Assembly: GCA_024636855.1 (NCBI GenBank)
Contig: JAGXGG010000019.1
Coordinates: 1 to 35,658, forward strand
Origin: Ignavibacteriota bacterium
Lineage (GTDB): Bacteria; Bacteroidota; Ignavibacteria; Kapaibacteriales; UBA2268
Length of the DNA: 35,658 bases
Direction of reading: 5' to 3'
In this document: positions 4,646 to 12,547 of the stretch, one piece after another
Layout of the letters: every line of letters starts with the position of its first letter
How positions within the stretch are numbered: the first letter of the stretch is position 1
The notes under the pieces: generated by a model
Databases searched by the model: none
Told to the model about the DNA's origin: nothing
What the model saw: the letters and a program-made list of their open reading frames with translations, nothing else
Made by a program: the position numbers and the translations under genes

Positions 4646-7600
4646 TTATTTTAACTTAGGAACTCTACCTGGTAACCAAGGAGAGTTTTTACTTTGTAAC
4701 TCATTTGTTATCATTTCAATAGAGTTATCAACTTTAGTCATTTCTTTTTCTATATTCTTAAATTCATCTTTTATAATTGCTATTGTTTCTAATTGCGTCT
4801 TAGTTGGAGCAGAACTCGAATACCAAAAGCTATAAAGTAAATTCCCTAACCTATCATTTAGTCCTGGTACAAAAGCACTAGATCTTTTTTGTAATGTTGA
4901 GTTTCCATTCAGTATTTTCTTGATTTCGTATATTTTATCTTCAGTATTTTTTATTTCTTTTAAGCTTTTCAAATCCGAATTAGCATAATTAATAATTGTA
5001 TTATGTAATACGTTGAGTTGAGAAGATGCTTCGTCAAGATATTTATCTGCACCAATAAGAACTCTTCTAATTTCAAAGGCATTTTTCTGCATGTCAACTA
5101 AATCATTATTATTTTCTGCTGGTAGTGATCTATTATCAAGTGTCTTAGCAGTAAATTTTACTGGTTTTACTAATTCAGTAACTTCACCATTATGTACTTT
5201 ATGTAATTCTACTGTATAGTCCCCAGGTAAAATAGGCATTCCTGAATATTTCTCAGAAGTGCTATTAGTTGTAAGTGGTGCAGTATCGGCATATCTAAGA
5301 TCCCAAGTAAATCTGTTTATTCCTTTTGAAATAGATTTCTTTAATCTTCTTACCACATTTCCACTCATATCTTTAAATGTAAATAGTAAGTATGGTGATT
5401 CCTCGATATCTTCTTTTTCTAATTGTTCGAAACTAGGATAATCATAATTCTCCTTTTTATCCTTATCTTCTTTTAATCTTTTAGATTTTAAAGTTTCATA
5501 CCCATCTTTTAAATAGTAAGTTATGCTTACTCCAAAATCTGGATTATCAGCTCTGTAATATGACTTACCCAAGCTATTTCTTCCTTTAGATCGGTCTTCT
5601 ATGTACATTAATGCGTCTTTAACTTTAAATATATGAGCATCTTTCTCAAGTAAATCTTTACTCACTTCTCTTATTGGTGAGTAGTTGTCTAAGATATAAA
5701 ACCCTCTACCAAAGCTAGCAAGAGCTAAATCGTTCTCCCTTTTTTGTATTTCAATTTCTCTTATACTAATTGTTGGTAAACCATTTGAAAATTTAATCCA
5801 GTTTTTACCATTGTCTTTTGTGAAATAAACGCCGAATTCAGTTCCTATGAATAATAAATCCTTGTCAAGATGATCTTGGACAATTGAGTGAACTGGCAGA
5901 TTATCAGGTAAATTACCTGAAATACTCGTCCAGCTAGTACCCATATCTTTACTCATTATGATGTATGGTTTGAAGTCACCGTTTTTTCTATTATCAAAAG
6001 TAGCATAAACTACATTTTCATTATGAATTGAAGCAGTTATATCAGATACATATGTAGTTTCTGGAATTGAAGTAAAAGTAGAATTTTTAGTCCAGCTATT
6101 ACCATCATCTTTAGAGACTTGTATTAGACCATCATCTGTACCTACATATAGTACTCCTTTTTCTAAAGGTGATTCATCAAGTGAAACAATATTTCCGTAT
6201 ACTGAAGTAGATTGATTTTTTGCTACTGCTTCTGGAGGCCAAACCTTACCCATTACTTTGAGCTTGTTTCTATCTATATTTCTGGTCATATCTTCACTAA
6301 TCTTAGTCCAAGAGTCACCTCTGTTAGTGGATTTGAATAGTTTATTAGCAGCAAAGTAAAGTGTCTTATTGTCATGTGGACTAATAATAACTGGTGAGTT
6401 CCAGTTCCATTTCAGAATTTCATCTTTTTCAGGTTGAGGTTGAACCCCTGTGAATTCACCACTTTTTTTATCATATCTAACTAAAAATCCATATTGTGGT
6501 TGTGAATAAATAATATTAGGGTCTTTAGGGTCAACTACGGTTTTAAATCCATCGCCACCTACTGTAAATATCCAATCTTCGTTTTTTATACCATTATCAG
6601 AAATAGTACGTGAAGGTCCTCCAAGTGTGTTATTATCTTGAGTACCTCCATACACGTTGTAAAATGGATAGTCGTTGTCAACAGTAACTCTGTAAAATTG
6701 AGTTATAGGCAGATTTTCGAAAAATCTCCAATTATTAGCTCCATCAAAAGTCTCGTATAGACCTCCATCACATCCAATTAAAATATTATCTGGATTCTTA
6801 GGGTTTATCCATATAGCATGGTCATCGACGTGTTTTTCACCTAAAGGTAAAGTACTAAAAGTCTTTCCACCGTCATAAGTAACCTGTGTATATGTGCTAA
6901 GAGAATAAACTATATCCTTATTATTAGGATGTGTTACAATTACCTGGTAATACTGTGGACTACCAGAAACATGATCACTTTGTTTTGATCATGATGCTCC
7001 TCTATCAGTTGATTTGTAAAACCCACCATTTCCTTCTGTTGCTTCTATAATTGCGTAAACGTAATCTGGATCTACATTAGAGATAGCTAACCCAATTCGT
7101 CCTATATCTCCTGTAGGCAAACCTTTAGTTATTTTATCCCATGTCTTGCCCCCGTCTACAGTTTTATATATAGCACCTTCAGGACCGCCATTTATTAAAG
7201 TCCATACATGTCTTCTTCTTTGGTAAGCTGAAGCATAAAGTACTTTAGAATCTCTTGGATCCATAACAATATCTGATACGCCCGTGTTTTCAGAAATTTC
7301 TAGTGATTTTTCCCAAGTTTTTCCACCATCAGTAGTTTTATTTAGTCCTCTATCACCACCATCTTTCCACAAAGGACCTTGAGCTGCTACCCAAACAATA
7401 TCGGAATTATTTGGATCTATTATTATTTTACCGATATGTTCTGAGCTTTTTAATCCAACATTCTTCCAACTTTTACCACCGTCCTCAGATTTATAAACAC
7501 CATCACCATAGGATACACTTCTTTGTGAATTTTTCTCACCAGAACCTACCCATACTACATTCGAATTATTGGGGTCTATTGTTATACAGCCAATAGAATA

Positions 7601-7885
7601 TGAATTTTCGTTATCGAACATTGGAGAGAAAGTAGTTCCATGATTTGTTGTCTTCCATACTCCACCTGACGCTACAGCTACGTAAAATTCATTATAATTA
7701 TTTTGATTAACTGCTAAATCTATAACTCTACCAGAAGCTATAGCCGGACCAATAGATCTAAACTTTAATCCAGAATAAGTTGATGATTTATTAATATCTT
7801 CAACATTTTCTTTTTCTGCTGAAATTAAAATGAGATGAAAATTTACAAATGTTAATAAAAAAATTGAAAATAATAGTCTTTTCAT
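4646..7885 (-). pseudogene. Sortilin-like (VPS10/Asp-box) secreted protein, split by in-frame TGA
   Basis: The full frame encodes about 1,079 codons of a secreted beta-propeller protein of the VPS10/sortilin-type glycosyl-hydrolase-like family. Start at 7885 with AAGGA upstream; signal peptide residues 1-23; repeated Asp-boxes (SxDxGxxW, e.g. KSEDGGKSW, KTVDGGKTW, KSTNRGDSW); then GGTQDNNTLGGPSRT; and a C-terminal region with RFTWDLRY (near residue 858) typical of the family. The frame is broken by a TGA at 6989-6991 (codon 299). It follows STDRGAS, exactly where the Asp-box Trp should be, so TGG to TGA is the simplest change. The same frame continues without stops (SKQSDHVSGSPQYY and on) to 4646. 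Intact parts span 7885-6989 and 6988-4646; an internal ATG lies at 6655. No T9SS domain is seen. A sequencing error, recent inactivation or readthrough remain possible. Confidence 0.88.
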
Positions 7886-10927: not shown

Positions 10928-12547
10928 ATGAAAAAGATTAAATTTAATGAGTTGGATAATAATATATTATATAATTCAGATTTAAATAGGGATAATCAAT
11001 TACGTCAAGTAACTCTTTCCTTAGATGAAGAAGAAGGAAATCTAACAGATGAGAAAGCAAAACATTTATTAAGGCGTATTACTTTCGGACCTACACCTAC
11101 TGAAGTTGATTTAATAAAAGATAGACCTATTTCTGAGGTTGTAGATGAACTACTAGGAGATGGTCTAGACTATCTCCCACAAAATGAGGATAGATTGCCC
11201 CCTAGTGGTTCCTTAAACTGGATCGACACAGTAGAGGAAGATCCATCTAAGGTTCATGTGACTATACGTGGTACTATTGAAGGTAAACATAAAAGCAGAT
11301 ATGCTCAATTTGTAGACTGGTGGTTAAGTCATATGTCAAATGACATCATAAATTCTAAAAATAAGCTAGTTTCTGAAAGGTTAACTTTTTTCTGGCATAC
11401 ACACTGGTGCATTGAGTTCAGTTATGATACTCAAGGATATATTCCACCTCCATTAATATATAGAAGTAATCAATCTATTAGAAAACATAGATCAGGTAAT
11501 TTTAAAAAATTCGTCGAAGAAATGACATTGGATGGTGCATATTTACTCTATCAAAGTTTGAATCTTAGTTCAGGTAAGAACCCTAATGAAAACTACGCTC
11601 GGGAGTTGATGGAGTTATTTACAATGGGGATAGGTAATTACAGTGAGGGAGACATCAGAGAGGCTGCAAGAGCTTTGACTGGATGGAGAGTTTCTGCTCA
11701 CAGACAAGACCCTAAACCATTTGAGTTTTTTGATACTTACTTTTCTCCAAAAGATCATGACTTGGATTCGAAGCAAATAATGGGAGAGACCCTACCTGCA
11801 AGAGCAGAAGAAGATAATACAATGGATAAAGTCCGAGAAGGTGAAGTAAAAGGTCTTATTGACATATTATTCAGAAGAAGACCAGAACCCATTGCTCGAT
11901 TTATCTGCACTAAAATATATAGTCATTTTGTATATAGTAGTCCTTCAAAATATGATCAAATATTTATAAATGAGCTTGCTACTGAAATGATTGCTAGTGA
12001 TTTTGAGTTATTACCAGTATTCAAGAAGTTATTCTAAAGTAAACACTTCTACGAAAAAGCCAATATTGGTGTACAAATCAAACAACCAGTAGAATTAATT
12101 GTCAATTTAGAAAAACTTCTTAAAGTTGATTATGTCAATTCTTCTGCTGCATTAGATGATCTTGAACAAGAAATATATGATCCTCCTAATGTTAGCGGTT
12201 GGAGTGGATATAGAAGTTGGATTTCAACTAAAACATATCCACGTAGGGTAAATCATTTGAAAAACCTAATTAGTAATAAAACAAATACTGCTTGGATGGC
12301 ATTCTTATCAGAGTTCCCAAGTCCATCAAACTTTGATATTGTATTCAAAGAATTAATAGAATATACTTTACCTAAGACTGTTACACCAGAAAGAATAACT
12401 GTTCTAAAAAATAGAATAGAGAGTATATCAAAAGTAAATACTAATAATTGGACTCAAGCTTATAATAGTAGTAGTGATGATATTGGTAAATTTTTAAACA
12501 CATTTTTTCAAGAGCTTATAACAGTTCCTGATATACATTTAGCATAA
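10928..12547 (+). pseudogene. DUF1800 family protein, interrupted by in-frame TAA
   Basis: The continuous frame has 540 codons including both stops and matches the DUF1800 family, proteins of unknown function usually encoded beside DUF1501. Visible features: AKHLLRRITFGPTPTEVD (residues 54-71), LTFFWHTHW (near 150), GKNPNENYARELMELFTMG, and late DPPNVSGW. A TAA at 12035-12037 (codon 370) interrupts it after FELLPVFKKLF. The same frame continues without further stops through SKHFYEKANIGVQIKQPVEL and VSGWSGYRSW to 12547. A single change, such as AAA to TAA, would explain it; no base shift is needed. Unlike DUF1501 it has no signal peptide at the visible start. If real, the product is truncated by about one third and loses conserved C-terminal sequence. 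Confidence 0.85.

Follow-up and report, generated by a model that had tools for sequence, protein, structure and literature searches.

The window, a 35,658-nucleotide stretch of DNA corresponding to contig C60 of a draft Ignavibacteriae assembly (G000; 3.10 Mb in 110 contigs, 96.4% complete), carries on its minus strand a gene for a secreted sortilin/Vps10-like, BNR/Asp-box β-propeller protein (positions 4646–7885). The gene is composed of 1,079 codons and a terminal TAA stop, and is interrupted at codon 299 by an in-frame TGA (6989–6991). Translation of the minus-strand frame from 7885 to 4646 confirmed that this TGA, read from 6991 to 6989, is its sole internal stop, as a sequence-only reading of the window had stated; the codon falls inside the interval 6986–6994 given in that reading. 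The stop divides the gene into an upstream piece of 298 codons (6992–7885, minus strand), the N terminus of which resembles a signal peptide when inspected by eye, and a downstream piece of 780 open codons (4646–6988, minus strand) with no nearby restart, the first GTG or TTG lying 111 codons and the first ATG 233 codons beyond the TGA.

Both pieces match the Sortilin-Vps10 profile PF15902, with 57.7 and 58.1 bits against a gathering score of 33, which bears out the earlier proposal that the same family and frame continue on either side of the stop. Matches of the propeller protein to NCBIfam profiles lie below cut-off, the two pieces reaching 65.6 and 73.5 bits with NF045728 (cut-off 175), and sequence searches against solved structures returned weak matches to a BNR-repeat glycosyl hydrolase, the dispase autolysis-inducing protein and Ycf48/HCF136. 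On sequence grounds, the protein appears to belong among the BNR/Asp-box β-propellers. It resembles the bacterial Sortilin-Vps10/BNR-repeat secreted β-propellers (PF15902, NF045728-like) in its PF15902 score above the gathering threshold and in its Asp-box repeats, whereas it differs from them in being encoded by an interrupted gene and in falling short of the NF045728 cut-off. Several near-complete relatives (for example, G005, G008 and G023) give only weak matches to the propeller protein, and the gene therefore looks dispensable in the family.

Codon 299 sits at the tryptophan position of an Asp-box. The sequence-only reading had placed the stop there, and the position stands; the significance implied by this placement is lowered, because TGG is one substitution away from TGA and the gene contains 21 TGG codons besides the single TGA. 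Comparison with three same-genus relatives (G001, G002 and G003; protein identity 87–90%) showed that codon 299 is TGG in all three, with no break at this point. The orthologues of G003 (90% identity across the portion after the stop) and G002 (87% identity) are single open frames of 1,079 amino acids, that of G001 ends at a contig edge, and the window as a whole is collinear with G003 DNA along its full length at 83% identity. More distant homologues have TGG at this codon in nearly every case, with one exception (TTT, phenylalanine), and the column is tryptophan in 15 of the 15 full-length orthologues aligned when the TGA is read as tryptophan. A stop at this site was found in none of the homologues compared. 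Because the orthologues have a single frame with TGG at codon 299, the stop is, as judged from the alignment, private and derived and differs from the ancestral codon by one base, and the 780 codons that follow it do not form a gene of their own. An end-to-end arrangement of two separate genes, an alternative considered earlier, is thus refuted by the single 1,079-residue frames of the relatives; with the lack of a nearby start codon in the downstream piece also against it, this alternative retains next to no probability.

The coding sequence surrounding the stop is otherwise well preserved. The ratio dN/dS against the G003 orthologue is 0.048 before the stop and 0.042 after it (overall range about 0.04–0.06). 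Parsimony assigns 40 synonymous and 6 non-synonymous changes before the stop, and 113.5 and 12.5 after it, to the source lineage, and 31 and 5 before the stop, and 111 and 27 after it, to G003; the changes of the source lineage are thus no more non-synonymous than those of G003, although both dN/dS values and change ratios are rough, as synonymous sites are near saturation. At the 223 columns that are invariant in the other orthologues, the source protein differs at one, by a conservative replacement of isoleucine with valine. The gene appears to have been under purifying selection until practically now, in agreement with the earlier observation that it carries no other decay, and an older decay was rejected on the basis of the low dN/dS on both sides of the stop and the single change in the invariant columns.

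Further premature stops were sought in a sample of 826 kb (27% of the genome, including the window), which was scanned for long frames that a single stop divides and that have no ATG close to it, and was compared, in part, with collinear DNA of G002 and G003; the many apparent stops in tblastn alignments that were due to open frames lying antisense or out of frame were set aside. Besides the TGA of the propeller gene, three further clear gene-splitting stops were found, TAA, TAA and TAG, so that all three stop types occur among the four. One of them, missed by the sequence-only reading, lies in the window itself, where a DUF1800 gene on the plus strand (10928–12544) is interrupted by a premature TAA at 12035–12037; its two halves match profile positions 1–285 and 287–404, and its orthologues are intact in G001 and G002 (542–546 amino acids), while in G003 the frame is open across this position. 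The second TAA interrupts a gene for a VWA/Ig-like secreted protein (C63:29757), which has orthologues of 1,576 amino acids in G002 and G003, and the TAG interrupts a gene for a cation efflux (CDF) transporter (C105:7181, minus strand), with orthologues of 338–339 amino acids in G001–G003. The VWA/Ig-like protein carries a type IX-like sorting tail. Two other candidate split genes, at C98:3209 and C93:10208, were rejected, as their halves match unrelated families and represent separate genes. Contigs C60 and C63 adjoin by synteny (they abut in contig C62 of G003), which places three of the four premature stops in one chromosomal region and the fourth outside it; this clustering may reflect locally poor coverage. 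The aligned residues of the source genome, about 39,700 in all, revealed no frameshift.

Premature stops of all three types indicate that there is nothing special about a TGA at a tryptophan codon, and the decoding machinery of the genome is ordinary. UGA is a normal stop: TGA terminates 50 of the 403 long frames in the 826-kb sample and prfB is present above cut-off. The single tRNA-Trp gene identified with ARAGORN has the anticodon CCA, no tRNA-Trp(UCA) was found in the genome by the same program, and genome matches to tRNA-Sec and SelB are below cut-off, those to tRNA-Sec falling on ordinary tRNA genes. The frame of the propeller gene is open under translation table 4, as expected if UGA were reassigned to tryptophan, but the anticodon, the release factor and the use of TGA as a terminator all speak against this code; selenocysteine at codon 299 is likewise opposed by the sub-cut-off scores of its machinery and by an aligned residue that is tryptophan and not cysteine. 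No report of UGA recoding in Ignavibacteria emerged from a search of the literature, and we attach hardly any probability to either form of recoding. Readthrough of the UGA by near-cognate tRNA-Trp, whether tolerated or efficient, would yield some full-length protein and would fit the strong selection on the downstream part until now. It is opposed by the base that follows the TGA, a T, which is considered a strong termination context after UGA. The stop is conserved in no relative, as it would be in programmed readthrough, and the D-arm of tRNA-Trp is ordinary, with G at position 24, so that suppression by a tRNA-Trp altered at this D-arm position was rejected. The TGA is one base from TGG, and cases in which a near-cognate tRNA inserts tryptophan at UGA have been documented (review: PMC7918605); even so, with three premature stops of other types and ordinary decoding machinery in the same genome, the tolerated readthrough suggested by the sequence-only reading is improbable. 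More doubtful still is a raised misreading rate through which the lineage would tolerate every kind of premature stop and continue to make full-length protein from its interrupted genes.

The feature is therefore a sporadic private nonsense substitution, either a null allele of recent origin or an error in the consensus, and the first three of the four options put forward earlier, a recent inactivation, a population variant and a base-call error, remain. We consider it slightly better than an even chance that the single-base change is genuine and represents a very recent null or segregating allele. This is consistent with TGG at the site in the same-genus relatives, two of which have complete copies, with the low dN/dS on both sides and the single conservative change in the invariant columns, with the apparent dispensability of the gene in the family, and with the occurrence in the assembly of sporadic nonsense of any type, as seen in three more stops with intact same-genus orthologues. 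An erroneous consensus base in the draft metagenome assembly, arising from low coverage or collapsed strains and leaving the gene of the organism itself intact, is a serious contender at somewhat under even odds. Natural inactivation usually includes frameshifts, and a pattern made up entirely of substitutions, in which the sampled 27% of the genome yields four premature stops of three types and the stretches compared yield no frameshift, leaves ample scope for an error; at least one, and probably two, of the four changes are transversions, which also counts against a genuine allele. The fragmentation of the assembly points in the same direction as the substitution-only pattern, and so does the gene itself, which otherwise gives no indication of relaxed selection. 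Against a consensus error, four nonsense changes in 826 kb are also within the range that real genomes carry, and the gene shows no excess of odd replacements, a weak test given that a single gene should contain no more than a few additional errors.

The stop is an ordinary nonsense change and not a new reading of the code. With one in-frame stop interrupting a gene that is otherwise conserved and under selection, the locus resembles the nonsense-type recent pseudogenes and in-frame stop polymorphisms of bacteria (PMC7918605), and, as in nonsense pseudogenes, the premature stop is missing from close relatives. That study concentrates on in-frame stops common to two or more genomes, whereas the stop described here is private to one draft assembly. 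A stop at a conserved tryptophan can mimic recoding, and it is the relatives and the other stops that identify it as ordinary sporadic nonsense; the assembly should be flagged as containing several genes broken by single-base changes, which may be erroneous.

If the base is real, translation would stop after 298 codons and, to judge from the repeat pattern, the product would end inside the first propeller, only part of which would be made. The 780-codon remainder, which lacks both a signal peptide and a start codon close by, would be unlikely to give a functional product. Loss of function is likely in that case, since the truncated product ends inside the first propeller and the remainder offers no start codon over the distances given above, and the product of the interrupted gene would presumably be non-functional.
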